From Promethearchaeota archaeon (GTDB taxonomy: Archaea; Asgardarchaeota; Lokiarchaeia; Sigynarchaeales; SOKP01), in the NCBI GenBank assembly GCA_019058515.1, contig JAHPYY010000108.1:1-14821 (forward strand): a DNA stretch of 14,821 nt. Reading direction: 5' to 3'. Made by a program: the position numbers and the translations under genes. Each line of letters starts with the position of its first letter. Positions within the stretch are counted from its first letter, which is position 1. Positions 1 through 14,821 of this stretch are shown one piece after another. Below the pieces are notes generated by a model. The model searched no databases and was not told where the DNA came from. It saw only the letters and a list, made by a program, of their open reading frames with translations.

Positions 1-14
1 CTTTTATTTACTTG

Positions 15-692: not shown

Positions 693-712
693 GCATTTCA
701 CAACACTAAAAC

Positions 713-754
713 TTTTTTCGATTTTATCGATTTTTTTAAAGACTTTTTATTTTT
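713..754 (+). terminator. oligo-T transcription terminator
   Basis: Two runs of six and seven T (713-718 and 731-737) and further T-rich sequence follow the stop of the upstream gene. Archaeal RNA polymerase terminates at such tracts without a strong hairpin. The call rests on base composition and position only. Confidence 0.4.
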
Positions 755-783
755 AGGATTTTTCTTTAATTAGAGAACTATTT

Positions 784-1398
784 ATGATAGATAGTTATAC
801 GATTGTCTTTTCAGGATTAGGAGGACAAGGCTTAATTCGCTTATTGCAAATTATAGGAAGCACCTTAGTAAGAGAGAGATATAAAGTGACCACTTCAGAA
901 ACCCACGGTTTAAGCCAAAGAGGGGGGAAAGTCACGTGTTTTCTACGATTCGGAACTAAAATCCACGCCCCTATCCCAATAATCACCTCTGTGGATATGA
1001 TTGTGGCAACCGAAAAAAGCTGCGTGTTAGATGTGCTTAAGTACGCTAAACCAGATAAGAGCACTATATTGGTCGTTTCCACTTACGAGAACCGGATATT
1101 TGGTAAAGAATATCCCTCCGAAGATTACCTTTTATCAGTTCTAAGGGAAAATTCCGAGAACCTGTACTTTATTCCTGCTATGAAAATAGCTGAGGATACC
1201 GTAAAAAACTCGCGAACCATGAATCTCGTTTTATTAGGATTTATTTCGAAGTTAGTACCTATAGAAGAAATTGAACTCGAAAAATCGTTAAAGGAGCATT
1301 TTTCACAGGAGTTACTTCCGTTAAATTCGCTAGCGTTAAAAAGAGGTATAGAATATAATATTTTCAACTCGCAGAGTAAAGAATTTAAGGAGAAATAA
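784..1398 (+). CDS. iorB: indolepyruvate:ferredoxin oxidoreductase beta subunit (2-oxoacid oxidoreductase gamma family)
   Basis: This is the small subunit of the enzyme that oxidatively decarboxylates aryl 2-oxoacids to aryl-CoA, reducing ferredoxin, in the cytoplasm of anaerobes. The family signature is clear: FSGLGGQG at residues 9-16 and SETHGLSQRGGKV at 38-50. The length of 204 aa fits IorB or a stand-alone gamma domain. No alpha subunit (the thiamine-diphosphate and ferredoxin-domain part) is present on either side, so its partner must be encoded elsewhere if the complex is intact. ATG 784 is the first start, and the Shine-Dalgarno sequence is weak. The substrate could be another 2-oxoacid, because gamma-family subunits are alike in sequence. 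Confidence 0.85.
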   Translation: MIDSYTIVFSGLGGQGLIRLLQIIGSTLVRERYKVTTSETHGLSQRGGKVTCFLRFGTKIHAPIPIITSVDMIVATEKSCVLDVLKYAKPDKSTILVVSTYENRIFGKEYPSEDYLLSVLRENSENLYFIPAMKIAEDTVKNSRTMNLVLLGFISKLVPIEEIELEKSLKEHFSQELLPLNSLALKRGIEYNIFNSQSKEFKEK

Positions 1399-1546
1399 GT
1401 AATTTTCCTTACTACTTTTACCACTCCGGGAAATTTCTCAGCAATCAATTCCCGTAACGCTTTCGGTATTTCTGCGATTGGTTAATCAAAAAGCGAACTA
1501 ACATCCTCAAATGTGGCTTATGTTAGGTTTGGCTAAATAAAACTTT
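1399..1546. other. intergenic gap between convergent genes, possible gene relic on the minus strand
   Basis: No intact gene is present. Read on the minus strand from about 1511 to 1400, the sequence gives SSLFD, a stop codon, then PIAEIPKALRELIAEKF and PGVVKVVRKI. This recalls the segment in archaeal Trm5-type tRNA methyltransferases that runs through FDxIGDIA and IPxxL to VKTVLRK. It is too short and interrupted to call as a gene, and may be chance. Confidence 0.2.
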
Positions 1547-2347
1547 TTATCGATATACATTTTCAAAAAAATCGAGTAGCAATTGGTTAACCTTATAGGG
1601 CATTTCGAGCATGAGAAAGTGGCTGACACCCTCAATTTCATGATAGTCTGTTTGGGGATACATTTTCAGAAAATCCCGTGTATATTCCTCCGTTAGTTGA
1701 AATACGGGGGTGTGCATCACTAGGCATGGGATATTTACTTCTTTTTTAACCCAAAATTTTTGGTCTTTTACCGCAGCCTCGATCATCTTCTGACCAATTT
1801 TCAATGGCACTTGTCGACTTATTTTAAATACTTCTTCTCGCAAAATGTTTGATGTATCGGGTAAAAATAGCATGTTGATAAATTTATCCCTTCCTTCCTC
1901 TTTCTCTAACGCTTGCACAAACATCTCGTTATTTTGGATCCATTCCTCTTTTTCTTTTTCATCTTCTGGCAATTCAAAATGAGCCCCATCTACGCTACAA
2001 ATTCCAATGCAACGTTCAGGATATTTATAGACTATAACTTCCGTAACTGAGAATCCCATGCTGTGTCCAATGATCACTGCTTTTTTGATTTTTTCTCGGT
2101 CCATTAACGCTTTGACTGTGTCAGCAAACATTTCCATTGTGTAATCCGCATCTTCGTCTTTAGTACTTTTACCATTACCCGGAAGATCAACTGCTATTAC
2201 CTTATAATTTGGAAAGGAATCTAATTGATACTTCCAAGATTGCACGCTAGAGGTCCAACCATGAATGAAAATTAGTACTTTTTTAGATCTTCCTCGCACT
2301 TCGTAATATACATTAAATCCTTGAAAATCTATGTACTTACTTTTCAT
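1547..2347 (-). CDS. alpha/beta hydrolase
   Basis: A 266-aa cytoplasmic alpha/beta-hydrolase-fold protein. It has the oxyanion segment FIHGW (residues 27-31), the nucleophile elbow GHSMG with Ser96, and a late catalytic histidine in GVSHF. The usual acid after strand 7 is not obvious: the segment reads CLVMHTPVFQLTEEY, where one expects GxxD. Asp120 in SVDGAHFE after strand 6 could serve instead. The substrate is unknown; an esterase or hydrolase of small carbonyl compounds is likely. ATG 2347 is preferred over ATG 2374 because GGAGG stands nine bases before it. It overlaps the end of padR by 11 bases, so the two are co-transcribed and probably translationally coupled. Confidence 0.85.
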   Translation of the reverse strand: MKSKYIDFQGFNVYYEVRGRSKKVLIFIHGWTSSVQSWKYQLDSFPNYKVIAVDLPGNGKSTKDEDADYTMEMFADTVKALMDREKIKKAVIIGHSMGFSVTEVIVYKYPERCIGICSVDGAHFELPEDEKEKEEWIQNNEMFVQALEKEEGRDKFINMLFLPDTSNILREEVFKISRQVPLKIGQKMIEAAVKDQKFWVKKEVNIPCLVMHTPVFQLTEEYTRDFLKMYPQTDYHEIEGVSHFLMLEMPYKVNQLLLDFFENVYR

Positions 2348-2879
2348 TCTTAAATTCCTCCAAAAATGATTCAAGCCATTCTTTTTCTGCTTTTAACAAG
2401 TAAATTCTCCTCGTTGCGAGTTGGAGATTGCCAAGAGTACAATTTTTTTCTTTTAAATAGTTTTCAAGCGCTTTATACCCATCGAGAATCTCTTCAAGTG
2501 ATTTGTTGTATTTGTTAAGGCATTCAATGGCTACCTCTTTTTCTAGTACATACAAATTAGCTAATCCCGTATCAATGGGCTCAATCGTAGGCATCCATTT
2601 TGATACTAAATCTTTAAGTTTCGCTTTAAACTCTACTCTCCCAGATTCCGTTAAAGAAAAGACTTTTTGGGCCATATTCTTCTCAGAAAGTTTTACTTTA
2701 CTGGAAACTAGCTTTCTTTTTTCCAATTTTGCTAAAAGCTTGTAAATAGACGATTGAGAGATCTGAGTCCAATAATCCATGCTTCGATCTTTAATTTCTA
2801 ACTCGATTTCGTAAGCATGTCTAGGATGTTCATAAAGTAATCCCATTAAAGTTGATTCTCGATCTGATATTGTACTCAT
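2337..2879 (-). CDS. PadR family transcriptional regulator
   Basis: A 180-aa regulator. An N-terminal winged helix (about residues 5-80) carries the PadR hallmarks: HAYEIELEIKDR, then SSIYKLLAKLEKRKLV and the wing ending in FSLTESGRVEF. The C-terminal half (about 90-178) is the helical dimerisation region of the long PadR type (Vir-like). PadR proteins usually repress a neighbouring gene and their own and are released by a small ligand. Here the first gene downstream is an overlapping alpha/beta hydrolase, so it probably controls that operon in response to the hydrolase substrate (inference). A dyad sits seven bases upstream of the start codon. Confidence 0.88.
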   Translation of the reverse strand: MSTISDRESTLMGLLYEHPRHAYEIELEIKDRSMDYWTQISQSSIYKLLAKLEKRKLVSSKVKLSEKNMAQKVFSLTESGRVEFKAKLKDLVSKWMPTIEPIDTGLANLYVLEKEVAIECLNKYNKSLEEILDGYKALENYLKEKNCTLGNLQLATRRIYLLKAEKEWLESFLEEFKNEK

Positions 2880-2885
2880 ACGATA

Positions 2886-2899
2886 TTGTAATGGTACAA
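2886..2899 (-). promoter_or_regulatory. candidate PadR operator
   Basis: TTGTA-ATGG-TACAA is a perfect 5+5 dyad between an A/T-rich TATA-like stretch (about 2901-2912, minus strand) and the padR start at 2879. The position would block transcription initiation, as expected for autorepression. No binding data exist; the call rests on symmetry and position. Confidence 0.4.
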
Positions 2900-3059
2900 C
2901 ATATTTATTTTTTTCTAAATGATTCTAGCTTAGGCATATTGAGAAGAGTAGATGTAGATTTGTATTTGTTAAATCGATACTAATGTTTATGAACAGAAAT
3001 GTATTATGAAATATTAGAACTTAAATTGAAATCAATTGAACAGTTAATAGGAATCTCAA

Positions 3060-3671
3060 ATGGACCTAATAGTCATATTTAGTTGGATAAATTTCGTTTC
3101 GCTTAACATTAGCATGGTCCTATTTTCGTATTTAGGGTTTCTGAGCATCATGCCCATTACACGCTTGGAGAAGAGAGGTAAGCGTGCGTGGAAAGAGTGC
3201 AAGATACTCCGAGATATTTCAAGTATTTTCGGTATTTTAATGGTCGTAAATACAATAATGTGGCTATGGGCTCCAATTGCTCAATTAAGTTGGCAAATTC
3301 ATCCTAATCCATTTATACCTATTACGATTGCTATTATTATTGGGATTCCGTGTACGATTATTATGATCATTGCAACGAAGGATGCAGGAAAAGAAATGAT
3401 GGCACCTCAACCTGAAACTAAAATGCACAAGGGAATTTACGACCACATAAGACATCCCGGCGCTTTGGGAGAATTGCCGTTGTATGTGTGCGTTGCTATA
3501 TTTATTAACTCATTGTTCCTATTATTTTGGATGAGCACGTTTGTAATAATTTATTTACCAATAATGATTCATCTCGAGGAAAAGGATTTGATTAAGCGGT
3601 TTGGAGACGAATATCGAGAGTATCGAAAGAGAACAGGTGCGCTTATTCCTAAATTTAAAAAAAAAAACTAA
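3060..3671 (+). CDS. isoprenylcysteine carboxyl methyltransferase (ICMT)-like membrane protein, copy 1
   Basis: A 203-aa polytopic membrane protein with about five hydrophobic segments (near residues 5-30, 53-77, 84-106, 140-156 and 157-170). The C-terminal SAM-binding signature of the ICMT/PEMT/NnrU superfamily is complete: GIYDHIRHPGALGE (125-138) followed after a hydrophobic pair by EEKDLIKRFGDEYREYRKR. Enzymes of this family methylate carboxyl or amino groups of lipidic substrates at the membrane, and the archaeal substrates are unknown. ATG 3060 has only a weak upstream purine stretch. The gene converges on the next one with a six-base gap. Two further family members lie within 7 kb. Confidence 0.82.
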   Translation: MDLIVIFSWINFVSLNISMVLFSYLGFLSIMPITRLEKRGKRAWKECKILRDISSIFGILMVVNTIMWLWAPIAQLSWQIHPNPFIPITIAIIIGIPCTIIMIIATKDAGKEMMAPQPETKMHKGIYDHIRHPGALGELPLYVCVAIFINSLFLLFWMSTFVIIYLPIMIHLEEKDLIKRFGDEYREYRKRTGALIPKFKKKN

Positions 3672-3677
3672 TTGAAA

Positions 3678-4307
3678 TTATTGGTCGGCTTTAAAAATAT
3701 TATGTATATGTATCATGCTTAAATTATATTTATCAGCGATCTCTTGCTGAGTGGCTCCGTTAAGATATTCTTGTTTGATTTTTTGGCGTAGAGTCTTAGT
3801 AAGAGAAGGGATCTCGCTTTGTTCCCATATTCTGACTGAAAAGCACGATGGAATCAACACAGCTAAGATAAAGAATGGTAAGTAAAAGGGAGGTAAAAAC
3901 CAGATTTCAAATGAGTACCTGTACGCTAATAGGTAATAAGCGATATATACCAAAACCCAAGCGATGTACACCAACAAAAACATGAAGATCGCAACGGAGT
4001 AATAATCCTCTATGACTGAAGGGTTCTCTTTAACAGTTCCTTTGTGGTATTTAATCAAGTTCCTTTCAAGCATTACTATTTTCGCAATTGGATAAAAATA
4101 CATTGCCACAAATATTAAGTATAGAGGAAAAAATGGGAAATCAAGAGCAAATACATAGGAATAAAACGAATAGTTTTCTACGCGCGTAGTTCCTATATAC
4201 ACAATGACATTGTCGGTTGCACGTAATAATGCTATAGGTAAAATTAGGTATAGCGTAAATAGAACTAGCACTATAACATTTAAAACTATTAGATATTTTG
4301 TTTTCAT
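3678..4307 (-). CDS. membrane protein with C-terminal helix-turn-helix
   Basis: A 209-aa protein of unknown function. Four hydrophobic segments are visible (about residues 5-29, 57-79, 103-128 and 136-158). After them comes a charged linker and a terminal helix-turn-helix: LRQKIKQEYLNGATQQEIADKYNL, with recognition-helix-like residues up to about 205. This is the pattern of resolvase- or sigma-type HTH ends (GxTQQEIADxYxxS). It suggests a membrane-bound one-component DNA-binding protein that passes a membrane signal directly to DNA (inference). I do not recognise a named family. A TATA-like ATATAAAAG lies at 4341-4349, about 35 bases upstream, giving a nearly leaderless transcript. Confidence 0.65.
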   Translation of the reverse strand: MKTKYLIVLNVIVLVLFTLYLILPIALLRATDNVIVYIGTTRVENYSFYSYVFALDFPFFPLYLIFVAMYFYPIAKIVMLERNLIKYHKGTVKENPSVIEDYYSVAIFMFLLVYIAWVLVYIAYYLLAYRYSFEIWFLPPFYLPFFILAVLIPSCFSVRIWEQSEIPSLTKTLRQKIKQEYLNGATQQEIADKYNLSMIHIHNIFKADQ

Positions 4308-4340
4308 ATTGGTTCTCGTATCTTTACTAGAAACTCAAGG

Positions 4341-4349
4341 ATATAAAAG
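4341..4349 (-). promoter_or_regulatory. TATA box of the membrane HTH gene
   Basis: On the minus strand this reads CTTTTATAT, about 35 bases before the ATG at 4307. With archaeal spacing (start about 25 bases downstream) the leader would be near ten bases. Confidence 0.45.
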
Positions 4350-4397
4350 TTCCCAGTAGTCATAATCTAAAAGAAAGTATGGATATAGATTTTAAAT

Positions 4398-5609
4398 TTA
4401 TTGCTCTTCTTTGGAACTCCCTCTCTCTTTAAGTTTAGCTTTAAGAATTAGAGTTTCTATTTTTCGGAGAGCTACTCTATCTCGCTTTGGAACGAGATCG
4501 TAGATTTCTTCGAGGTCTTCCAAGTTAAGGAGCTTGAAGAAATCTTTGCGTAATAAATATCGGTACCCATCTAGATTTTTTTCTTTTAAATACAATATAA
4601 TCTCGCTTTTTACGATTTCTTGGGCTCTGAAAATCCCTCTTTGAATTAATTCTTGGAGTAGGGGATACCATAGCCTCCTTTTTTCCATGTACGTGAATTT
4701 CACGTTTCTATCAAGCCACTCTTCGAACATCGTTTCTAGTTCTTCGTTAGAAAATAACTCAAGGTATTGTTCGTTTAGATAGAAAATAATCGTATTATAG
4801 TTTTTTATCGCAATTCTCGTCGCAATACTTTCTTTTAATCGAATGACAGCTCGTTTATCCCCTAAGAACGCCAATCTTTTAAGCAAGGGTATCGATAAGC
4901 TGCTATGCAAAATCCTCAGATCGTAGTCATATTCGTACCAGGCATGGAGATTAGAACAATGACCAATAAATTCTGATACAGGATCAAGAAGTTTATGATT
5001 TGTTTCGTGATTTCTATCGATCTTATTGTATACTTCGAACGCTTCATCAATTGATTCGATTTGTTCGAACTTAGCAAAATCTGTTTGAGTGAGGTTTAAC
5101 AGGAGATACTTACATTGATTAAACGGTTTATCATCAAGCAAAATAACCGTCTGACCTCTAATTAGCTTTAAGGTGAGGTGTTCGTTTATTCTAAATTCTC
5201 TCTCTTCTGGATAATCGATTTTTTCTTTACTCTTCACCTTTTCACTGTTGCGAACATATCTCAGGTCATCTAATCTTTCTTTCACTTCCATTGAATGAAG
5301 GTTAAAAGCGTCAAGAAATTCTTGAACTTCGTCTCCCTGATCTACTGATATAATCTTACAATGATGATACCGATTATCTTCCATTAATTCACCTTGTATT
5401 TCTTGTGCTACTCTGGAACTATTAAATCTTTTTCTCACAGGGGATTTGGCACCTTTCCATATGAATATCCTCCTTATATCTTCTCGAACAAGTACTAACA
5501 CCTGTTCTGGATTAAGATAATGTACTATATCCTCCTCAGAAAACTTAAGTTCCCGGCGAACACCGTTATCTAGTAACTCATAAGCAAAAAAATTTCTTAA
5601 TTTATCCAT
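4398..5609 (-). CDS. gelsolin-like domain protein with an Asgard GHCSNL-type domain
   Basis: A 403-aa soluble protein. Residues about 30-103 match a gelsolin/villin repeat: QVLVLVREDIRRIFIWKGAKS, then RKRFNSSRVAQEIQGEL and KIISVDQGDEVQEFL. Gelsolin repeats bind actin and calcium in eukaryotes and are among the eukaryotic-signature proteins of Asgard archaea. After a charged linker comes a region (about 137-250) with FNQCKYLLLN and GHCSNLHAWYEYDYD followed by LLKRL. I know this region next to leucine-rich repeats in Asgard proteins; its role is unknown. The rest (250-403) is helical and charged, HEAT-like in appearance. No signal peptide or membrane segment is seen. Actin regulation is possible but unproven. 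It is a single gene with its own TATA box. Confidence 0.75.
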   Translation of the reverse strand: MDKLRNFFAYELLDNGVRRELKFSEEDIVHYLNPEQVLVLVREDIRRIFIWKGAKSPVRKRFNSSRVAQEIQGELMEDNRYHHCKIISVDQGDEVQEFLDAFNLHSMEVKERLDDLRYVRNSEKVKSKEKIDYPEEREFRINEHLTLKLIRGQTVILLDDKPFNQCKYLLLNLTQTDFAKFEQIESIDEAFEVYNKIDRNHETNHKLLDPVSEFIGHCSNLHAWYEYDYDLRILHSSLSIPLLKRLAFLGDKRAVIRLKESIATRIAIKNYNTIIFYLNEQYLELFSNEELETMFEEWLDRNVKFTYMEKRRLWYPLLQELIQRGIFRAQEIVKSEIILYLKEKNLDGYRYLLRKDFFKLLNLEDLEEIYDLVPKRDRVALRKIETLILKAKLKERGSSKEEQ

Positions 5610-5624
5610 AACCCAAATAAAACA

Positions 5625-5697
5625 AGCTAATAATTTTATAAAAATTCATCGCTCAGACATTATAAAAGATAGAATGTTTAAGATTAGCTAATAATTT
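5625..5697. repeat. pair of direct repeats AGCTAATAATTT
   Basis: The 12-base word occurs at 5625-5636 and 5686-5697 in the gap upstream of two divergent genes. The second copy overlaps the palindrome ATTAGCTAAT (5683-5692). It could be a pair of regulator sites, but AT-rich sequence yields such words by chance. The rest of the 231-base gap holds TATA-like stretches only. Confidence 0.3.
5635..5644 (-). promoter_or_regulatory. TATA box of the gelsolin-domain gene
   Basis: TTTTATAAAA lies 26-35 bases upstream of the ATG at 5609. This is a strong archaeal TATA match and predicts an almost leaderless mRNA. Confidence 0.5.
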
Positions 5698-5840
5698 CTG
5701 CACTTTTTTTCTTGACCAGGTATTTATGCTCTATTTAAAGAAATTTTATAAATATGTAATATATTTAGATACAATTGTAAACTTCAAAAGTAATTCTATT
5801 AAATTTATAGGCTCTACGGTATAAATGTAAAGAGGATTGT

Positions 5841-6634
5841 TTGGTAAGCATAATCGAGATAATAATTACAATTTTACTTATAAATACATCGCTTCTGATT
5901 CTTGGAAGCGTTATTTTTGGATTTGCTTGTATTTATGATAGGGAACTGTTTTCTAATCTCCCAATACAAATTTTATTTTTAATTGGAAACTTATTTATTT
6001 TACACCAATTTGTTAGTAACATATATCATATAGTGGCGATGTTTTTTTTGCTGCGAAATCTTTTAGTTTATTCATTGCTGCTGCTTTAGATTATTATATA
6101 ATCTTTTTTAAACCAAGACTTGAAGTGTCTCATATTTCTCACTCTTTGCTCGCTGCTGTCGTTATAAGCCCTATTGTGGTATCCCTGCAAATCTTTATGA
6201 TATTTACGTTAATTATAGCCTCAATAATGCTGTTTCATGCGTACTTACGATCGAGATCAACTGTCAAATTACTTTTTATGTCATGTGGATTAGTTTCTAT
6301 GATATCAATAGGATCTCAACTAATTCCTTATTATGATTTTGAATTTGGACTATTTCTAGCTTATTTAACTGGTACAGTATTCATTACTATATTACTTATA
6401 ATTGGACTTGTCGCAATACTGGAACAGGATAATAATAAAAACCTGAATGTTAAAAATAACTTAAAAGATAGCTACTCCCCTGAATTGGGTAATATCCTTC
6501 ACTCAACTTCGATATCCTATGAATTAATTAATATTACGGAAATTTCTGAACAGGAATTATACAAATTACATAAACTTTTGAAAGAAAAAATAAGGGAAGC
6601 TTCCAAATTGGTTAAAGAGATCCGTAACCTTTAA
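5841..6634 (+). pseudogene. polytopic membrane protein, frame interrupted at a T8 run
   Basis: Two adjacent frames read as one protein. The first (TTG 5841, GAGG upstream) runs to a stop at 6087-6089. The second is open through to 6634. At the eight T of 6042-6049 a -1 shift, or one extra T, joins them as HIVAMFFFAAKSFSLFIAAALD and onward without a stop, giving about 264 aa. The product would have about six hydrophobic helices and a charged, coiled-coil-like tail (ISEQELYKLHKLLKEKIREA). I do not recognise the family; the layout recalls membrane sensor modules. The join could be a homopolymer sequencing error, a recent inactivation, or frameshifting: the site reads T TTT TTG in frame, a classic slippery heptamer. 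Without the shift only an 82-aa fragment is made. Confidence 0.6.
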
Positions 6635-6691
6635 GGTTTCGGTTTATATAGATTACATCTGCTTACTTTATACAATAATCACTTTTTAAAA

Positions 6692-7462
6692 TTAGTAAAT
6701 ATGAGGAATTAGTTTGTACCTTACGCGTTGCCTGTATTCCTTGTATCCTTCCAGCCCCGTTATAAGCATTTCTTCTTCGTATTTAGTTCTGAGGATCAAA
6801 CCTAAAACGCCTAAAACGGCAGGAATTATGCTCCACCATGATCCGAACGATAACGATACTCCAATAATTATCCCCAGAAAACCCGAATATAACGGGTGGC
6901 GTACGTGAGCGTACAACCCCGTATCGATAAGTTTTTGACCTTCTCTGATGTCGAGAACTTTTGAAGCGTACGCGTTTTGGACTTGAGCAAGATAAAGCAC
7001 ATATAACCCAGCTGCCAATATAGCAAACCCCACTATTTCTACCCAAATTGGATACCCAATCGACCAGTTAAATAGGTGATCCAGGTCTGCAAGAATAAAT
7101 ATCAATGCGAAACTAATTCCAAATAAAGGTAAAATCCACTTATCGGAACTCGATGCTTTTTGCGATTTCTCGTCTTTCATCTTCCTCTCTTTACGTATTT
7201 TCATCCTGTTTCGCAGCACTCTAGGATTTTTTTTGTTTAAGCCGTAGACCATCAAAAAGGCATAAACCGCAAACATAACCACAAACACCCAACCTTCGAT
7301 CCACAACCAATCCCCCGCAAGGGGAAATAGACAAAATGCAATAAGTGCCCCACTGTATAACGGTACAATTGCTAAAAACCATTTAGGAAGAGGTTTATCC
7401 ATCTTATCGATGGTTTGATCATTGGTGTTGTTTTTTATTGATTCACTGTCGTTATCTGCCAT
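6692..7462 (-). CDS. isoprenylcysteine carboxyl methyltransferase (ICMT)-like membrane protein, copy 2
   Basis: A 256-aa membrane protein. A polar N-terminus (1-25) precedes helices near residues 28-50 and 54-75. A strongly basic cytoplasmic loop (80-107) follows, then helices near 110-126, 138-160, 192-206 and 209-225. The methyltransferase signature is GLYAHVRHPLYSG (182-194), and the C-terminal EEEMLITGLEGYKEYRQRV matches the second SAM-site motif of the ICMT family. The best guess is methyl transfer from S-adenosylmethionine to a lipid or prenyl substrate at the membrane; the true substrate is unknown. ATG 7462 lacks a clear Shine-Dalgarno sequence; Met21 is an alternative start. It is closer to canonical bacterial and archaeal ICMT-like proteins than the other two copies in this window. 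Confidence 0.82.
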   Translation of the reverse strand: MADNDSESIKNNTNDQTIDKMDKPLPKWFLAIVPLYSGALIAFCLFPLAGDWLWIEGWVFVVMFAVYAFLMVYGLNKKNPRVLRNRMKIRKERKMKDEKSQKASSSDKWILPLFGISFALIFILADLDHLFNWSIGYPIWVEIVGFAILAAGLYVLYLAQVQNAYASKVLDIREGQKLIDTGLYAHVRHPLYSGFLGIIIGVSLSFGSWWSIIPAVLGVLGLILRTKYEEEMLITGLEGYKEYRQRVRYKLIPHIY

Positions 7463-7556
7463 ATGAGTTATAGTAACTGTCGAAATAAAAACATATCAAT
7501 ATTTAAGGGCTAAAATAAAATAAGGGATTTAAATTTAACTTGAAGACGACTCTAAT

Positions 7557-7882
7557 TTACTCCTCGGTCATGGTCAAACCTACTAGGGGCATTGCGTCTA
7601 TTCCAGTTAAGAAGACTTCTATTTCTATTCGATATCCTTCTATTCTTGAATACTCAAGGTATTCCGTATATGAGCGTTTCATATACTCAGTAAACTTACC
7701 CTCCATGACTCAGAAATAACTATTCCCTTCATACCATCAGAAGTAATTCTTACCCCTACTCGTAAAATAGGTTTAGAGAGTGTTGGATCAGGAGGAAAAT
7801 TCTTTTGCATTTCGATGTACTTCTTTCCTACTTCTTCTGATTTATCTGCTGGAAAATAGGATGTGGTCACAACTAATACCAT
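7557..7882 (-). pseudogene. small conserved protein, frame broken by one base
   Basis: ATG 7882 has an excellent Shine-Dalgarno AGGTGA five bases before it. The frame gives MVLVVTTSYFPADKSEEVG through ISESW, then runs into a stop at 7679-7681. Shifting by -1 near 7699-7712 continues as EGKFTEYMKRSYTEYLEYS through EGYRIEIEVFLTGIDAMPL to a TAA at 7557-7559, about 108 aa in all. I recall a family of small archaeal and bacterial proteins of this shape (TxSYPxxK, PPD, EGYxxEIE, LPxVGL end), without known function. One missing G would explain the break, as a sequencing error or a real mutation. The window has a second gene with the same type of lesion. Confidence 0.5.
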
Positions 7883-7891
7883 TAATTTCAC

Positions 7892-8175
7892 CTCTATGTT
7901 TAATATTGATTTAATATTAGATTAAGAACCAAGGGATTAGTATTCCAATAATAGAGTTAAGTTTTTACTTTTTTATCAAATAGATATAGCAGTAAAAGAA
8001 AAAAAGAAGTTAAACAGCATTAAAAACCTAATAAGAATGAATAATCTTTTATTCCGAACGAAAATCACTTATTATCCTTAAGAAGAGCATGATTTTTACG
8101 TAAATTCTTTATAAACTATGGTCTAAATTCTTTTTAGTTCTATTAAAGTTGTTTTTATTGAGTCATAACGGATAA
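7892..8175. other. gene-free intergenic region between divergent genes
   Basis: About 280 AT-rich bases. I see a direct repeat of TTTAATATT with an 11-base period (7899-7918) just upstream of the minus-strand gene, and a TATA-like TTTATAAAC (about 8108-8116) that could serve the plus-strand dehydrogenase. No RNA gene, strong hairpin or coding frame is apparent. Confidence 0.4.
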
Positions 8176-9123
8176 ATGTTATTTTCGAACGAGTTGATAG
8201 ATATGAGTGAAAATGAAATTATGAAGGGTAAAGTTGTAATGATTACGGGAGCGAACTCGGGCATTGGGAAAGAAACGGCAATACAATTGGCTAAAAAAGG
8301 TGCGACTATCATCATGGTCTGCAGAAATAAGAACCGTGGTGCGGAAGCCCTTAAAGAGATAAAAGAAAAGGGATTTACTGAAAACATTGAATTATACATA
8401 GCAGATTTGGCGGACCAAAACTCTATTAGAGTTATGGCTAAAGAATTTAAAAACGCTCATAAACAGCTTCATGTGTTAATAAACAACGCAGGAGTGATGT
8501 TAACGGAAAGGTTCGAAACTCCAGAGGGTTACGAACTCACTTTTGCCACAAACCATCTCGGTCATTTCTTATTATCGTACCTTCTTTTGGATGTTCTTAA
8601 AAAATCGGCTCCAGCACGCATAATTAATGTTGCATCTTTAGCGCATCGATTCTCGAAAGTTGACTTTAAAGACATCAACCTAAAAAACAAATACAGAGGA
8701 TTTAGAGCGTATTCAAACTCAAAGCTATATAATATCCTGTTTACGTATAAATTAGCGAGGTTATTGGAAGGGACGGGAGTAACAGTCAACGCTCTCCATC
8801 CAGGAACCGTACATTCAAACTTAGGAAGTAGTGATCGGAGTTCATTTCAGCGGATGACGGGAGCTTTTAATTTCTTAATGAAAAGCGCCAGGAAAGGTGC
8901 GAGTACCTCAGTGTACCTCGCGAGTTCCCCAGAAGTTGAAAATGTTACGGGTAAATACTTTTCACACAGTACGAAAAAGAGATCATCGAAGAAGTCTCGA
9001 AATCAAAGTTTTCAAGATAAACTATGGGATATTAGCGAAAAGTTAACGAAATTATCGCAATTAGACAATAAGGAGCTTGTTATTGAGGAAGCTGTTTCGA
9101 TGGAATTTGATAAACCTATTTAA
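8176..9123 (+). CDS. short-chain dehydrogenase/reductase, retinol-dehydrogenase-like
   Basis: A 315-aa NAD(P)-dependent oxidoreductase of the classical SDR fold. It shows TGANSGIG (24-31, cofactor), VCRN with Arg50 suggesting NADP preference, NNAG (103-106), the structural Asn126 in ATNHLGH, catalytic Ser154, and YSNSK with Tyr179 and Lys183. The ALHPGTVHSNLG segment after the active site is typical of RDH11-14-like enzymes, which act on hydrophobic alcohols or ketones. A basic tail (about 267-278, HSTKKRSSKKSR) is unusual and may touch membrane or nucleic acid. ATG 8176 is the longest start; ATG 8203 and ATG 8221 are alternatives and none has a clear Shine-Dalgarno sequence. An ICMT-like gene follows at once, so an operon on a lipidic substrate is plausible. 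Confidence 0.88.
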   Translation: MLFSNELIDMSENEIMKGKVVMITGANSGIGKETAIQLAKKGATIIMVCRNKNRGAEALKEIKEKGFTENIELYIADLADQNSIRVMAKEFKNAHKQLHVLINNAGVMLTERFETPEGYELTFATNHLGHFLLSYLLLDVLKKSAPARIINVASLAHRFSKVDFKDINLKNKYRGFRAYSNSKLYNILFTYKLARLLEGTGVTVNALHPGTVHSNLGSSDRSSFQRMTGAFNFLMKSARKGASTSVYLASSPEVENVTGKYFSHSTKKRSSKKSRNQSFQDKLWDISEKLTKLSQLDNKELVIEEAVSMEFDKPI

Positions 9124-9145
9124 AATAACCATAATTACACCATAT

Positions 9146-10009
9146 ATGAGATTAAAAGGGATTGAAAAATTTAAGGAAAAGCTCCCTTGGTATAAGGGTA
9201 AGAGGATACTTTTAATCCCATTTCTATCGCTGATTACTGGTTTAGCTTCCTTGGCTTTTCAATTGTCAATGGGTTTCTTACCTATCCTTTTCAAAGACAT
9301 ACAAATGCTTCAATTCCTCGCTCCATTTTTACCAATTATTGGTTCTGGCTTTATTTTGACCTTAGGATTCTTCCTCGTGTATTCGTTTTGGCGTCAAAAA
9401 AGAAAGTTGCTCCAACAGAACAGAGACAGAGCGTATCAAACAGCGATTCCATTCGCGTTAATTGGGATTGTCCTCGTACTTTCTTTTGTCATTAATTCAA
9501 TTATTCCAAGACAACTTATATTTTTCAGTATAGACTTAACGCAACTAACTTGGTATTTTCAAGTTCCTTTGAATGAGATACTAATTGCAACCCCATTTTA
9601 TTTTCTCATAACTCGGATTATCTTAGCTCTGCTTTTCACGTTTTTTGGTTTTTTAGTCGTTATCAAGTCTTTGTCGGTTTTCGGAATAGATAACATGGCA
9701 CTAGTGTATGTTTATTACCCCGAGGAGTCAAAAGTTGTAAATCACGAGATATATTCAGTTTTGAGGCATCCCACTTATCACGGCTTATTTTTAATCCTTA
9801 TAGGGGGCTTTTTTTTAAATTTTTCCGTATACTCACTCATTTTCTTCTGTATGTTTTTGATAGGAATGAGTATGCACCTTAAATTCGTTGAGGAAAAAGA
9901 ATTAATAAAAAGGTTTGGAGAGGAATACAATAGTTATCGTAAGTCGGTTCCAGCTTTGTTCTTTAGATTAAGAGATTTTAAAAAATACTTTAGTTTTCTT
10001 TTTTGCTGA
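9146..10009 (+). CDS. isoprenylcysteine carboxyl methyltransferase (ICMT)-like membrane protein, copy 3
   Basis: About 287 aa from ATG 9146, which lies 22 bases after the dehydrogenase stop. A TTG at 9077 in the same frame would overlap that gene by 47 bases and is less likely. Long hydrophobic segments (residues about 22-40, 57-80, 102-118, 147-175 and 215-245) are followed by the family signature NHEIYSVLRHPTYHG (about 199-213) and EEKELIKRFGEEYNSYRKS. It is the most N-terminally extended copy in this window, with a predicted six or seven helices. It probably uses S-adenosylmethionine at the membrane on an unknown lipid-like substrate. Co-transcription with the preceding SDR is likely. The end is close to another gene set with its own TATA box. 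Confidence 0.8.
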   Translation: MRLKGIEKFKEKLPWYKGKRILLIPFLSLITGLASLAFQLSMGFLPILFKDIQMLQFLAPFLPIIGSGFILTLGFFLVYSFWRQKRKLLQQNRDRAYQTAIPFALIGIVLVLSFVINSIIPRQLIFFSIDLTQLTWYFQVPLNEILIATPFYFLITRIILALLFTFFGFLVVIKSLSVFGIDNMALVYVYYPEESKVVNHEIYSVLRHPTYHGLFLILIGGFFLNFSVYSLIFFCMFLIGMSMHLKFVEEKELIKRFGEEYNSYRKSVPALFFRLRDFKKYFSFLFC

Positions 10010-10040
10010 AGATTACAGTATTTTAGTGGGGAGTAATTTT

Positions 10041-10050
10041 ATTTTATAAA
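10041..10050 (+). promoter_or_regulatory. TATA box for the VOC gene
   Basis: ATTTTATAAA lies about 60 bases before the TTG start at 10110, leaving a leader of roughly 35 bases that contains a small hairpin. Confidence 0.4.
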
Positions 10051-10067
10051 CGCAATATTTATGAGTA

Positions 10068-10083
10068 TAAGACGAAAGTCTTA
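10068..10083 (+). other. leader hairpin with GAAA tetraloop
   Basis: TAAGAC-GAAA-GTCTTA is a perfect six-base stem closed by a GNRA tetraloop, 15 bases before the likely ribosome site of the VOC gene. It may stabilise the mRNA 5' end or be coincidental. Confidence 0.3.
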
Positions 10084-10109
10084 ACTTAACCTTAATAGAG
10101 GTTTTTTGA

Positions 10110-10478
10110 TTGGCAAGAGTAACACATTTTGAGTTTAATGTGAAGGATATCGAGAAAACAATAGAGTTTTACAAGGTGGTTTTTAATTGGAACATAACCA
10201 AGTGGGAGGGTCCAATCGACTATTGGCTCGTCATGACTGGCGACGAGAATACCCCTGGTATTGACGGAGGTATTGGCTCTGCTGAGGAAGATTTCCCTAA
10301 TATAGTAAATATTATGGATGTCAAAAACATAGACGAGGTCATTGAAAAAATTAAAGCTAACGGAGGAGAAATAATAAGACCTAAACACGCTGTTCCAGGT
10401 GTTGGATGGCTTACGTACTTTAAAGATCCCGAAGGGATTGTTTCGGGAGTCATGGAAGAAGATTTGGAAGCTAAATAA
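10110..10478 (+). CDS. VOC-fold (glyoxalase/bleomycin resistance) family protein
   Basis: A 122-aa single-chain vicinal-oxygen-chelate protein with the usual two beta-alpha-beta-beta-beta modules. The first is THFEFNVKDIEKTIEFYKVV, with His6 as likely metal ligand. The second is centred on NIDEVIEKIKANGGEI and ends GVGWLTYFKDPEGIVSGVME, with the second-module Glu as likely ligand. YWLVMTGDENTPGIDGG is characteristic of the short subfamily often annotated as glyoxalase-like. Such proteins dimerise and bind metal, but reactions range widely (isomerase, dioxygenase, drug binding), so none is assigned. The TTG start has GAGG seven bases upstream. It is followed by nine T and then an oxidoreductase gene on the same strand. 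Confidence 0.88.
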   Translation: MARVTHFEFNVKDIEKTIEFYKVVFNWNITKWEGPIDYWLVMTGDENTPGIDGGIGSAEEDFPNIVNIMDVKNIDEVIEKIKANGGEIIRPKHAVPGVGWLTYFKDPEGIVSGVMEEDLEAK

Positions 10479-10483
10479 ATCAA

Positions 10484-10492
10484 TTTTTTTTT
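10484..10492 (+). terminator. oligo-T terminator after the VOC gene
   Basis: A run of nine T starts five bases after the stop codon. It fits archaeal intrinsic termination and suggests the next gene is a separate transcript. Confidence 0.45.
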
Positions 10493-10567
10493 ATATTTTG
10501 TCAACTTCACTAAACTTAAGGGTTACCTTAGAATCTGCATATTAATAGTAAAATATAGGTGAGATAA

Positions 10568-11608
10568 TTGAAAGAGAAAAATTGGTTATTGTACGGAGCG
10601 TATGGATATACTGGAGAATTAATAGCTAGAGAAGCTGTCCGTAGAGGATATGATCCTGTAATAGCGGGGCGATCGAAGGAAAAACTTTCTACATTAGCAG
10701 AGAGTTTGGATCTAGAATACCATGTATTTGACCTAAACGATAAAACTCTCGATAAATATTTCATGGAGTATGACTTAGTATTTCTTGCTGCAGGTCCTTA
10801 TATTCACACTAGCGACCCAGTGGTGCAAGCCTGTTCAAAAGCTGGAGTAAATTACCTAGATATAACTGGAGAAATCCCCGTCTTAAAAAAACACTTTAAA
10901 CTCGATGAGGATTTTCGTCAAAAAGAAATCGCTTTAATTCCTGCTGTTGGTTTTGATGTAGTTCCCTCGGATTGTTTGGGTAAATATGTAAGTGAAAAAA
11001 TTGAAAACCCAACGCATTTAGAAATTGCGTTTACGATGGAAGGAGGGATTAGTCCTGGGACCTTGAAAACCATGTTGACGCACATATCTGAAGGAACGCT
11101 TTCGCGAAAAAACGGAGAACTAGTAAAACTACCTCACGGGACAAAATCTATGGAAGTTCGATTTCCAGATAAAGTCAGAAAAGTGGTACCTACACAGTGG
11201 GCTGATATTGTTACAAGTTACATCTCTACAGGAATCCCTAACATAATAGACTATATTGCACCACCTAAAAAGATTTTAAGTTTGATGTCGACCGTCAATT
11301 CTATTGATGGGAATGTTCAAGAATGGATCGAGCGTTACATTAAAGGTCCCGACGAGAAAACTCGAACTACTGCCAAGTCTTATTTATGGGCGAGAGCTTC
11401 CAACGACAAAGGAGAAGAGGCTGAAGCGTGGCTCGAGACAATGGAGAGTTATCAACTTACAGCTGTAGCAGGTGTTCGAAGCGTAGAAAATGTTTTTAAA
11501 CTTCGTCCTAAAGGAGTATTGACTCCCGCACTTGCGTTTGGTAAGGATTTCATTCTTGAACTACCTAATACTCAGAGATTCGATAGCTTAGAAATTGTGG
11601 CAAAATAA
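10568..11608 (+). CDS. saccharopine dehydrogenase-like NAD(P)-binding oxidoreductase
   Basis: A 346-aa protein of the saccharopine-dehydrogenase-like/trans-acting enoyl reductase family. The N-terminal Rossmann motif is LYGAYGYTGELIA (8-20), then AGRSKEKL as dinucleotide contact, the strand LVFLAAGPY, and DITGEIPVL. PAVGFDVVPSDCLG (about 129-142) is the family signature, followed by the substrate domain starting FTMEGGISPGTLKTML. Relatives reduce lipid-bound or polyprenyl double bonds or have unknown substrates; true lysine-pathway saccharopine dehydrogenase is unlikely. The length is usual for short archaeal members. The TTG start has AGGTGA five bases before it, the same start context as HdrA at the end of the window. 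Confidence 0.85.
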   Translation: MKEKNWLLYGAYGYTGELIAREAVRRGYDPVIAGRSKEKLSTLAESLDLEYHVFDLNDKTLDKYFMEYDLVFLAAGPYIHTSDPVVQACSKAGVNYLDITGEIPVLKKHFKLDEDFRQKEIALIPAVGFDVVPSDCLGKYVSEKIENPTHLEIAFTMEGGISPGTLKTMLTHISEGTLSRKNGELVKLPHGTKSMEVRFPDKVRKVVPTQWADIVTSYISTGIPNIIDYIAPPKKILSLMSTVNSIDGNVQEWIERYIKGPDEKTRTTAKSYLWARASNDKGEEAEAWLETMESYQLTAVAGVRSVENVFKLRPKGVLTPALAFGKDFILELPNTQRFDSLEIVAK

Positions 11609-11636
11609 TTAACTATATTATTTTTTAAATATTAAC

Positions 11637-11915
11637 CTAAAGCAAGTTAGTAACTTGTATGATGGTATTAGATATTTCTAGTGGTTTTACCTCCTCTATG
11701 AAATGACCTACATCGTTATAAACAGTTACATTTCCTTTTAGATGAGGTAAATTGTCAATACATTGATTAATTGCATATTCCTTTCCAGTAGGGTCCCAAC
11801 TTCCTAGTATTTTATCTTCAATCGTAATCTCTTCATTATACCAGTTTTCAACAATAGATTTCGGATAAACATTGCTAAAAAAATATAAATATTGTGCAAG
11901 TATGCACATCATCAT
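11637..11915 (-). pseudogene. C-terminal remnant of an alpha/beta hydrolase
   Basis: Only 92 codons remain. They resemble the last third of a haloalkane-dehalogenase-like hydrolase: YPKSIVENWYNEE (cap/strand region), KILGSWDPTGKEY in place of the usual acid loop, then LPHLKGNVTVYNDVGHFIEE with the catalytic histidine. The oxyanion hole and nucleophile elbow that should precede are absent; the sequence upstream to 12195 has no matching frame. The gene was therefore cut, probably by rearrangement at about 11915. An ATG exists but I see no Shine-Dalgarno sequence. Expression as a stand-alone protein is unlikely. A second, intact hydrolase of a different branch is at 1547-2347. Confidence 0.65.
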
Positions 11916-11964
11916 ATGATTATCTCATTCTTTAGACTGAATCGCTATAAAGCAGTTAAAGAAC

Positions 11965-12031
11965 GGGCAAGGGTTAAAAAGCCCTTGTCTTCCCTTTTCT
12001 CCAGGCAAAATTAGAGGAAAGGGCGATTTTT
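11965..12031. other. two adjacent hairpins and a T run
   Basis: Hairpin one pairs 11965-11975 with 11980-11990 (core GCAAGGG/CCCTTGT, AAAA loop, some G-U). Hairpin two pairs 11992-12000 with 12015-12023 (CCCTTTTCT/AGGAAAGGG, 14-base loop). Five T follow at 12027-12031 on the plus strand. This is the most GC-rich, structured piece of a gene-free stretch. It could be a small RNA with terminator or a remnant of a mobile element. No family is recognised. Confidence 0.4.
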
Positions 12032-12105
12032 AAACACCACATTTAGGCACATTTACCAATTATTTTGTGCTAATTAAGGAGATTATCAATTAGTATTTAA
12101 ATGTT

Positions 12106-12124
12106 ATGTGCAAATGTGCACATT
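12106..12124. promoter_or_regulatory. operator-like palindrome upstream of the winged-helix regulator
   Basis: AATGTGCACATT at 12113-12124 is a perfect 12-base palindrome, preceded by a second half-site copy (ATGTGCA, 12106-12112). It lies about 70 bases before the regulator start and could be its autoregulatory site or sit over its promoter. Confidence 0.35.
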
Positions 12125-12151
12125 AAGTCTTTAATACAATGTAGTCCTATA

Positions 12152-12172
12152 TTTTTGGTAGATTACCAAAAA
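12152..12172. promoter_or_regulatory. inverted repeat next to the regulator start
   Basis: TTTTTGGTA-GAT-TACCAAAAA has perfect nine-base arms 24 bases before the TTG start at 12196. The place, between promoter and start codon, fits an autoregulatory operator. It also could form a short hairpin in the leader. Confidence 0.4.
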
Positions 12173-12195
12173 AAAATCAAACAAAAGGATTCGAA

Positions 12196-12885
12196 TTGAC
12201 AAAACGTGATAATGTTAAACATAAATCAAGAATATTTAAAGAGTTATCCAATTCACCTTCGGGATTAACTATAACAGACATATCTAAAAAGGTAAACCTT
12301 CATAGAAATACAGTTTCTAAATATCTTGGAAACTTAGAGGAAGAGGGAGTTATTGAGAAAAAAGAAATTGGATGGGCACATCTCTATTTCAGCAAGAAGC
12401 GAGAATATTTGAAAAAATCTTTAGTCAATTCGTTTATGAAATCGCTCCTTTATGGAATAAAAAAAGTGTTTCCTTATTCAGAGCAAAAATTGAAGCAAAT
12501 CGGGCATTTAATTGCCGAGAATTTTGAGTTTCCTGTAGGTAAAGCAATCTTGAAAGAATTTAAGGAAGCACATAAATTAGTTGATCCCATTGCTCAACTT
12601 AACCTTTTTCAGAAGTTTTACAATTCGTACGACTTTTTTCAGGACGATTTAGAGATTACGATACTTTACATAGACAAAACTCGCGCTAATTTTAGGTTAA
12701 AGTATTCGGAATACATCGAAAAGGACAACATATACGAGAATTTTTTTCACATCATGTGTGGAATTATAGAGCGTATTTATTTACAAAATCTGAATAAGCA
12801 GGTAGTTTGTAACGTAGGTATGATGCATCCCTCCAAAAATGTCAGAGAGTCCTATATAGAAATATCTGCGGAAATTCTTAAATAA
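12196..12885 (+). CDS. winged-helix transcriptional regulator with C-terminal sensor domain
   Basis: A 229-aa one-component regulator. Residues about 10-65 form a winged helix: IFKELSNSPSGLTITDIS, then LHRNTVSKYLGNLEEEGVI and the wing KEIGWAHLYF. The C-terminal part (about 90-229) is a mixed domain with YENFFHIMCGIIERIY near its middle and a terminal VCNVGMMHPSKNVRESYIEI. The cysteine-containing end recalls 4-vinyl-reductase (V4R)-type ligand-binding domains, which bind hydrophobic compounds, but the match is from memory and weak. TTG 12196 is preceded by AAAAGGA. Two dyads lie upstream. The next gene converges from the other strand, so it is a single transcription unit, probably acting on itself and distant targets. 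Confidence 0.75.
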   Translation: MTKRDNVKHKSRIFKELSNSPSGLTITDISKKVNLHRNTVSKYLGNLEEEGVIEKKEIGWAHLYFSKKREYLKKSLVNSFMKSLLYGIKKVFPYSEQKLKQIGHLIAENFEFPVGKAILKEFKEAHKLVDPIAQLNLFQKFYNSYDFFQDDLEITILYIDKTRANFRLKYSEYIEKDNIYENFFHIMCGIIERIYLQNLNKQVVCNVGMMHPSKNVRESYIEISAEILK

Positions 12886-12973
12886 ATGTAGAAAATTGAT
12901 GATTAATCCCATATCAAAAATAGGAAAATAAAAAGAAAGGAATTTGACTTTAAAGTCTCGTTGTTGACGATTG

Positions 12974-13825
12974 CTATTCGTGAGGGAGGATAATTATAAG
13001 CAATATGATTAATAGTAATCCTGCTAAAAAGATCAATGCTTGAGGGATTGATTTTCTTAAGTCTTTTTCCTTTAGCAACTCAGGCATTAATTCTGTACTA
13101 GCTAAATACAAAAAGCCGCCTCCCGAAAACGCTAAAAAGAAAAAATTGAATATCTCTAAAAGATCAGAAACGATGAACGCGATTAATCCCCCGATTAACG
13201 CCACTAACGCACTGATAAAATTGAACAGTAGCGCCTTCTTTTTTGAAAATCCACCATAGAGAAGAATGCCGAAATCTCCAATTTCTTGAGGAAACTCGTG
13301 AAATACCACTGCCAATGTGACTATAATTCCGCTCCAAAAGCTAGTCAAAAAGGAAACCATAATGATGACGCCGTCCAGTAGATTGTGTAACCCATCTCCT
13401 ATCAAATTTAACAGGGCTACTCTTCTACTGCTACCCCATTTATCCAAAGGCACAATCAAGGATCCAACTCCCTCAGTTCTACCTGCGTAGCATACCAATT
13501 CATTTTCCGATTCGTGCGCATGTCCATGGAACCAATAAATAAACCGTTCCAAGATAAAAAAACTTACAAATCCCGCTATTACGAAACCAAAAAGTAGTCC
13601 TTCGGTAATTCCAGCACCTTGTGCGTTTAATTCTTCGAGGTGATGAAGTGATTCGGGTATTAAATCAAACAACGCCGTAGCAAGGATCGTTCCCGTCGCA
13701 AACGCCACGAGGATGAAGATTAGCTTGTCTAAGGTTTGTTCTCGCAGTGAAATCATGAATATACCTGCAAGACTTAACGTCCCTACGAGAAAAATCATTA
13801 AAAATCCAAATAATACTTCCAACAT
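12974..13825 (-). CDS. ZIP family metal transporter
   Basis: A 283-aa inner-membrane permease that moves Zn2+, Fe2+ or Mn2+ into the cytoplasm. It has eight hydrophobic helices. A histidine-rich loop between helices three and four (FHGHAHE, 99-105) is a likely metal-gathering site. Helix four carries GDGLHNLLDG (His147, Asn148, Asp151) and helix five HEFPQEIGD (His176, Glu177, Glu181), the binuclear metal site of the ZIP family. The HEFPQEIGD form is typical of the GufA/ZIP11-to-LIV-1 type. The metal cannot be told from sequence. ATG 13825 follows a perfect 12-base palindrome by five bases, so metal-dependent repression is plausible. The gene is transcribed away from hdrA. Confidence 0.92.
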   Translation of the reverse strand: MLEVLFGFLMIFLVGTLSLAGIFMISLREQTLDKLIFILVAFATGTILATALFDLIPESLHHLEELNAQGAGITEGLLFGFVIAGFVSFFILERFIYWFHGHAHESENELVCYAGRTEGVGSLIVPLDKWGSSRRVALLNLIGDGLHNLLDGVIIMVSFLTSFWSGIIVTLAVVFHEFPQEIGDFGILLYGGFSKKKALLFNFISALVALIGGLIAFIVSDLLEIFNFFFLAFSGGGFLYLASTELMPELLKEKDLRKSIPQALIFLAGLLLIILLIIILPHE

Positions 13826-13976: not shown

Positions 13977-14024
13977 CTTGACATTAAACCACTAAGGAGG
14001 TTTAAAGTACTCAAGGTGAAATAA

Positions 14025-14821
14025 TTGTCTGAAAATCAGACCACAGAACAAGACGAAGAAAAAATTGGAGTTTTTGTATGCCGTTGAGGTGTTAACATCG
14101 CAGGGATACTTGACATACCTAGAATTGTCGAAGAACTAAATAGACTAGAAGGTGTCAAAGCCTTCGAATATTTAAGTATGTGTACAGAAGGGGGATCCTC
14201 CTACATTAAAGAATCCATAGAGGAGCACAAACTCTCACGAATCGTTGTTGCGGCATGTACGCCAAAAACACACCAGCCAGTATTTCACGCTATACTTTCG
14301 GAAGCAGGCTTACCACCAAGATATCTTGAGTTCGTAAATATTCGAGAACATTGTTCGTTTGTACATCAAGCTCCTGAGGAGCGAGAAAATGCATTTTGGA
14401 AAGCTATTGACCTTATTAAAGCGGGGATCTCGAGATCAAAACTCTTAGAAGATGTACCCACTAAAACCGTCCCAGTGACGCCCGTGGCACTAGTGGTTGG
14501 CGGAGGAATCGCAGGATTAACTACGGCAGTAGATCTAGGCGATGCGGGTTATAAAGTGTACCTCGTCGAGAAAAACACAACTATCGGGGGGCGAATGTCC
14601 CAACTTGACAGAACTTTTCCCACCGACGATTGTTCCATATGAATTTTGGGACCGAAAATGCTCGAAGCAAATCGTCATGAAAACATTGAGATCTTATCTT
14701 ATAGCGAAGTTATCGATGTAGATGGGTATATCGGAAATTTTACAGTAAAAGTTAAGCGAAAAACGCGCTATGTTGACGAAACAAAGTGCACAGGCTGTGG
14801 TTCTTGTACAGATGCCTGCCC
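14025..14821 (+). CDS. hdrA: heterodisulfide reductase subunit A, selenoprotein with two UGA codons, 3' truncated by the window
   Basis: HdrA is the FAD and iron-sulfur subunit of heterodisulfide-reductase complexes that bifurcate electrons between hydrogenase or formate, ferredoxin and disulfides. Here 265 codons are seen. TTG 14025 has GGTGA five bases before it. The N-terminal domain reads VFVCR-U-GVNIAG with TGA at 14085-14087 (residue 21), where relatives have VCHCGxNIAG. The next conserved cysteines are Cys53, Cys78 and Cys110. The FAD motif VVGGGIAGL is near 158-165. TFPTDDCSI-U-ILGPKM has a second TGA at 14640-14642 (residue 206), where relatives have DCSxCILxPKM. The window ends in a ferredoxin motif with Cys255, 258, 261 and 265. 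Reading both TGAs as selenocysteine restores an unbroken family sequence. Archaeal SECIS elements lie in the 3' untranslated region, outside this window. Confidence 0.9.

Follow-up and report, generated by a model that had tools for sequence, protein, structure and literature searches.

The hdrA fragment at the window end

The window (the whole stretch of DNA analysed here, 14,821 nucleotides) ends in the 5′ part of a Lokiarchaeal hdrA gene, which encodes the electron-bifurcating subunit HdrA (Table 1). The reading frame contains two TGA codons, at residue 21 in the context VCR-U-GVNIAG and at residue 206 in the context DCSI-U-ILGPKM. It has no TAA, no TAG and no further TGA. With C written for U, residues 10-265 aligned to the solved HdrA 5odc_A (E = 2.9e-92), and the protein matched five distinct solved HdrA sequences (5odc, 7bkb, 8rvu, 8rvv and 9sfi). 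The sequence-only reading of this DNA had described HdrA similarity on both sides of the TGAs and a frame without other stops or shifts, and these results bear it out.

The fragment possesses the parts by which an HdrA is recognised, namely an N-terminal iron-sulfur domain, an FAD domain and a Cys pattern that can be aligned to solved HdrA. Pfam searches gave FAD/NAD-binding and Fer4 matches. The NCBIfam HdrA model NF040770 scored 325.8 bits over 253 of its 777 positions, which is below its cut-off of 1100 because the fragment is truncated by the contig end. The HdrA frames of relatives run to at least 638 residues where they are neither cut nor broken. Comparing the starts, we found a start codon (TTG, GTG or ATG) at the place of the window TTG in 13/13 relatives, four of which (L011, L017, L019 and L030) use ATG; a GGTG motif precedes it in 12 of the 13. 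A ZIP-family metal transporter gene (12974-13825, - strand) adjoins hdrA in the window, and a ZIP-like stretch sits elsewhere in relatives, for example at 9612-10419 of L065.

Table 1. Features of the hdrA fragment, in window positions. Counts refer to the 150 listed HdrA matches of relatives.
Feature	Position	Strand	Remarks
AAGGTGA, ribosome-binding-site-like motif	14013..14019	+	5 nt ahead of the TTG start
hdrA, 5′ part, 265 codons	14025..14821	+	TTG start; truncated at contig end; from frame and homology
Cys19 codon, never TGA	14079..14081	+	C in 150/150
TGA 1, residue 21, CRU motif, probable Sec	14085..14087	+	TGA in 105/150; inferred, probable N-terminal [4Fe-4S] ligand
Cys53 codon	14181..14183	+	TGA in 14/150
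Cys78 codon	14256..14258	+	TGA in 37/150
GGGIAG dinucleotide-binding motif, FAD (thioredoxin-reductase-like) domain	14499..14516	+	from sequence and Pfam
Cys203 codon, never TGA	14631..14633	+	C in 150/150
TGA 2, residue 206, CSIU motif	14640..14642	+	aligned to Cys197 of 5odc_A; TGA in 120/150
Inserted ferredoxin domain, first Cys motif CTGCGSCTDAC	14787..14819	+	cut by contig end

In-frame TGA codons in related hdrA genes

The protein P0001 was used to search 227 genomes from the phylum that includes G001, the genome of the Lokiarchaeal locus L001, with up to 11 candidates scored per genome. An HdrA match was found in 221 genomes and none in the remaining six. There were at least 150 matches, and the column counts rest on all 150 that are listed. 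The named loci among L001-L043 are titled Lokiarchaeota or Lokiarchaeia. An earlier locus set, used below for the 3′ regions, comprised the best 80 of 310 confirmed stretches.

The sequence-only reading had placed both UGAs at conserved Cys positions and had proposed an alignment of HdrAs with Cys or selenocysteine (Sec, U) at both columns. In this alignment, 150/150 relatives have Cys or TGA at each of the two. Across all 150 relatives, ten of the 265 columns hold nothing but Cys or TGA, so two random codons would both fall on such columns with p ~0.0013.

The 150 HdrAs hold 278 in-frame TGAs, and 276 of these sit at columns 21 (105), 53 (14), 78 (37) and 206 (120). The other two are at column 9 of the near-identical loci L117 and L128, N-terminal to the conserved domain. 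TAA and TAG occur inside none of them. Counting all columns, 30 loci have no TGA, 7 have one, 72 have two, 37 have three and 4 have four; at the four main columns the corresponding numbers are 30, 7, 72, 39 and 2. The pattern is nested, with TGA at column 206 in 120/120 TGA-bearing HdrAs. Two sites in one HdrA had been called unusual, but at least two of the four columns are TGA in 113 of these 120, so two or more are the rule. L115 and L116 carry TGA at 21, 53, 78 and 206, in an HdrA frame on the - strand that is open through the stretch examined. The 30 rows without TGA have Cys at all four columns. Every row has Cys at 19 and 203, the positions that go with 21 and 206 in the CxC and CxxC motifs.

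To look at the nearest relatives, we took the loci scoring over 900 as close orthologs (n = 47), and 47/47 have TGA at both columns 21 and 206. Against these orthologs, pN/pS was 0.204 for residues 22-205, 0.182 for residues 207-265 and 0.374 before the first TGA, with synonymous sites near saturation (pS 0.81-0.82). Purifying selection acts on the frame beyond each of the two TGAs. An in-frame TGA at the CxxU column followed by conserved coding sequence, as found here, is the mark of a Sec-containing HdrA. The evidence comes from a single contig that ends 59 codons beyond the second TGA, but a sequencing error, a frame-broken copy or a decaying pseudogene has a negligible chance of being the explanation: error was rejected on the same two TGA columns in all 47 close orthologs, and decay on the pN/pS of about 0.2 either side of the second TGA in a frame with no other stop or shift.

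We also built a FastTree tree of the 150 listed HdrAs and the window (151 rows), coding TGA and Cys alike at these sites to keep them from influencing its topology. The state changed once at column 206, 9 times at column 21, 5 times at column 53 and 12 times at column 78. All column patterns together required 22 changes, in comparison with 74.9 for shuffled labels. The 9, 5 and 12 changes point to repeated Cys/Sec exchange at the same places; gains and losses are not distinguished by these counts, and 44 of the 148 inner branches of the tree were collapsed because of poor support. The window HdrA belongs to a group of 42 rows marked with a star (99), and its nearest relative is L085 at 84% identity. 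Among the matches listed for the whole-window DNA, identities were 64-81%.

Among the best 120 listed homologs of the window protein, 96 are shorter than 200 aa, and 96/96 of these stop at ...DCSI, immediately ahead of the second TGA; the protein alignment itself took in 20 of 121 proteins. Gene callers seem to cut these HdrA genes at the second TGA. Since gene callers fragment such proteins, the energy metabolism of Asgards is likely under-annotated.

A wider comparison, reaching beyond the length of the window fragment, covered 100 loci. Twenty of them (16 with TGA, 4 without) were hand-picked, so the proportions in this set are biased and those of the 150-row set are preferred. The count was confined to TGAs inside the alignment to L001; those past the HdrA end (L047, L059, L062 and L063) were left out, as was a TGA of L043 close to where its contig stops. 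Five aligned TGAs fall at other Cys: the inserted ferredoxin domain accounts for four and the C-terminal ferredoxin domain for the fifth. Sec is thus not strictly confined to the columns of the N-terminal cluster. An extra in-frame TGA stands at a ferredoxin-domain Cys, column 308 in L001 numbering, in L070, L078, L117 and L128, and its context in L070 and L078 is ESCVE-U-YACV. L047 and L068, titled Bathyarchaeota and 'bacterium', have a Sec-type HdrA with TGA at column 206 only.

SECIS-like hairpins and Sec genes in relatives

In most relatives read, mvhD follows hdrA and usually contains two TGAs of its own (CWKU and VGUYP). Behind mvhD, most readable relatives have a hairpin in which a stem of about 9 bp joins an AUGA...GA core to an A-rich loop. 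This core and stem, with an A-rich apical loop that lacks a ministem, correspond to the eukaryote-like (Asgard type I) SECIS. The published form of the Asgard eukaryote-like SECIS is of the same core, stem and loop type (PMC11227280, PMC13188914; papers are cited throughout from the parts of their text that were accessible). By a strict hairpin rule, 49 of the 65 readable 3′ regions have it, compared with 4 of 650 base-shuffled ones (single-base shuffles); the other 16 failed the rule. The 3′ region was unreadable at 15 of the 80 loci: 10 lacked an mvhD match, and at 5 hdrA runs off. For L001-L046, the strict rule gave a hairpin in 33 of 41, and inspection of mismatched, bulged or shorter stems raised this to 40 of 41. 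No SECIS-like hairpin was seen on inspecting the 3′ region of L044.

We then counted pairs in the stem. Of the 49 hairpins, 38 are exactly 35 nt long, and these gave 33 distinct cores, which were used raw and in register because a MAFFT alignment had put two SECIS groups out of register. All nine stem pairs show two-sided changes among the 33 distinct cores, the rows having been preselected for a stem. In the same preselected cores, pairing was 95% in register versus 29-43% in five slid registers. Rfam SECIS covariance models gave no match with E up to 1 in the window, L001, L002 or L041, so the hairpins of relatives rest on our own rule.

From 9465 onward in L001, and at equivalent places in relatives, one hairpin behind mvhD apparently serves two to three hdrA UGAs plus two mvhD UGAs. 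SECIS sharing of this kind is already known, as PMC11227280 reports that hdrA and frhD (mvhD) have a SECIS in common. The MvhD/VhuD selenoprotein is the next gene in most relatives and shares the SECIS-like hairpin, although it is a different protein and lies beyond the contig end of the window. It is listed with two Sec (PMC13188914). In L059 and L063, an mvhD-like CWKUGYG motif lies behind hdrA in the same open frame, with the TGA read through; these may be HdrA-MvhD fusions, judging from the frame.

Sec genes were searched in 17 genomes of relatives and 14 control genomes. SepSecS scored over the cut-off in 17/17 relatives and in one of 14 controls (M. jannaschii). A PSTK-like gene was present in 17/17 relatives, in all cases below the curated cut-off. 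A SelB/EFSec-like match of at least 228 bits was obtained in 15 of 17, and in 11 of 17 the score was below the curated cut-off. In G015, a SelB piece lies at a contig edge, on the contig that carries the G015 SepSecS, while G010 gave no SelB/EFSec-like match of 228 bits or more. tRNA-Sec scored over the cut-off in 5 of 17 relatives and did not in 12, with some weaker matches beside SepSecS and no tRNA-Sec match at all in G003. The same searches also match the control genomes. With E up to 0.001, they gave tRNA-Sec in 14/14, SelB in 14/14 and PSTK in 9/14 controls, and over the cut-off tRNA-Sec in 5, SelB in 2 and PSTK in 1 of the 14. Weak matches therefore say little, and only strong ones count. 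G001 has a 117-nt tRNA-Sec-like match below the cut-off (contig C41:175206-175322), about 75 nt from SepSecS; this match may represent a tRNA-Sec interrupted by an insert or intron.

An alternative is that TGA is reassigned or read through as Trp or Cys, by a genome-wide change or by near-cognate decoding, so that no selenium is involved. TGA is indeed rare as a terminator in the window. In positions 1-13825, 15 putative genes hand-picked from 30 open reading frames end in TAA 13 times, in TAG once and in TGA once (9077-10009). Moreover, P0077 and P0112, two longer HdrAs in the database, have W at both Sec columns; presumably the gene caller translated TGA as Trp here. The Trp reading was rejected on the 30 rows without TGA, which have Cys and not Trp at all four columns. 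General recoding would not confine 276 of 278 TGAs to four Cys columns, and the relatives have SepSecS, EFSec-like genes and SECIS-like hairpins. We regard such recoding as very improbable.

In our view, both TGAs of the window are very probably read as Sec, as had been proposed for them; the conservation in 47/47 close orthologs, the purifying selection and the Sec genes and SECIS-like hairpins of relatives all favour it. Both UGAs would be decoded by Sec machinery of the archaeal/eukaryote type, with Sec insertion presumed for this organism. A eukaryote-like SECIS behind mvhD would direct the decoding, one hairpin serving at least four UGAs in two cistrons. For relatives this poses a decoding puzzle, in which a single hairpin would have to act on four to five UGAs in two genes.

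Proposed ligands of an inter-subunit iron-sulfur cluster

Performing alignments to the solved enzyme, we find that column 206 corresponds to residue 197 of 5odc_A, a Cys. In the solved HdrA, Cys197 is a trans ligand of the N-terminal cluster, coming from the other HdrA copy (PMC9012536). By homology with this Cys enzyme, for which the role is established, column 206 would be the trans ligand of the N-terminal cluster in the window protein as well. Both window TGAs thus probably serve one cluster in the dimer. The sequence-only reading had envisaged selenium at or near the flavin and cluster; given the match of column 206 to the trans ligand, the two residues probably do not occupy distinct places by the flavin.

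HdrA has 16 ferredoxin-domain Cys and four more Cys at L001 columns 395, 407, 411 and 412. The latter four we take to hold one cluster. By count, these Cys suffice for five other clusters, which leaves the N-terminal cluster with 206′ and three of 19, 21, 53 and 78. Within the first 265 columns, Sec exchange marks exactly 21, 53, 78 and 206, and for this reason we infer that these are its four ligands. These four columns thus probably supply all the protein ligands of a single inter-subunit [4Fe-4S] cluster, which carries one to four selenolates in the TGA-bearing enzymes. The choice of 21, 53 and 78 as the three N-terminal ligands is a deduction from the exchange pattern, Cys19 being equally conserved. 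Ligand numbers for these three columns were not found in the accessible parts of PMC12350162, PMC12054007, PMC8097209 and PMC9012536.

Both residues could instead be Sec in redox-active selenol-thiol pairs of the CxU and CxxU kind (Cys19-Sec21 and Cys203-Sec206), the cluster role being absent or transient. The partners Cys19 and Cys203 are invariant (150/150), reviews class HdrA by its CxxU motif (PMC9312934, PMC13188914), and CXXU/UXXC redox motifs have been ascribed to Asgard selenoproteins including HdrA (PMC11291895). However, the residue matching column 206 is a named cluster ligand in the solved enzyme, and a review has Sec in Hdr ligating iron-sulfur clusters (PMC9499178). Columns 53 and 78 have no nearby Cys partner in the window, yet they are Sec in 14 and 37 of the 150 relatives. 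Altogether, we think it unlikely that the pairs account for the two Sec.

With good though incomplete confidence, we favour the cluster role: the window hdrA encodes a selenoprotein of a soluble heterodisulfide-reductase-like complex, in which Sec21 (in cis) and Sec206 (in trans) ligate one inter-subunit [4Fe-4S] cluster. Of the four Cys that otherwise ligate this N-terminal-domain cluster, two would be replaced in this way, one of them by Sec206 of the partner HdrA subunit. Electrons taking the low-potential route to ferredoxin would pass through the cluster. Selenolate ligands would alter its potential and the lability of the inter-subunit bond. Being more polarisable and of lower pKa, selenolates may tune the cluster potential and thereby affect electron transfer, and they may ease the making and breaking of the trans bond as a mobile arm moves.

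The mobile arm of HdrA complexes contains N- and C-terminal HdrA domains together with a shuttle cluster, which the legend accessible in PMC12350162 places at the C terminus. Because of this placement, linking the shuttle cluster to the N-terminal cluster is conjecture. Counting domains, we suspect that the two are the same, which contradicts the wording of PMC12350162; our verdict does not depend on it.

As for the evolution of these ligands, we lean towards a stepwise exchange in Asgard HdrAs, column 206 changing before 21, 53 and 78, up to a [4Fe-4S]Sec4 cluster, ligated by selenocysteine alone, in the two genomes of L115 and L116. On this low-potential bifurcation branch, selenium may have been selected for tuning or bond switching at an electron-transfer cluster rather than for nucleophilic catalysis. 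Most discussion of selenocysteine concerns its part in catalysis. Should all four positions ligate a single [4Fe-4S] cluster, thiolate and selenolate would have replaced each other repeatedly in evolution at a centre whose sole task is electron transport. Archaea close to eukaryotes would then offer a natural series of zero to four selenolates in an electron-bifurcating enzyme, and what an electron-transfer cluster gains from selenium would become directly testable.

Mariotti et al. 2016 (MBE) reportedly described five Lokiarchaeal selenoprotein families, three of them multi-Sec, with eukaryote-like SECIS. The multi-Sec families very likely include HdrAs such as these. Sec in HdrA is known from methanogens, bacteria and Asgards (PMC2933860, PMC1794560, PMC9723677, PMC11227280). 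The statement of the sequence-only reading that methanogens and Lokiarchaeota have it, the latter with a eukaryote-like SECIS, fits what PMC11227280, PMC9723677 and PMC13188914 give for methanogens and Asgards. The Sec-HdrA (HdrAU) of Methanococcales/Methanopyrus and Asgards is the same protein as ours, with the hdrA-mvhD/frhD pair and Sec at CxxU (column 206). Sec in HdrA is not new; the one-cluster mapping may be the new part, and it was not found in the accessible text of the literature searched, a search that most subscription papers lay outside.

The table of a 2026 (May) review gives one Sec per HdrA, with the motif CxxU (PMC13188914), whereas two are found in the window and as many as four in relatives, with those other than column 206 lying in the N-terminal domain. 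A count of Sec per HdrA was not found in the accessible part of PMC11227280. Comparing the alignments of the solved HdrAs 5odc, 8rvu and 9sfi, we find Cys at column 21 in each of them, in contrast to the TGA of the window. At column 206, 9sfi_A alone among the three has X, a non-standard residue.
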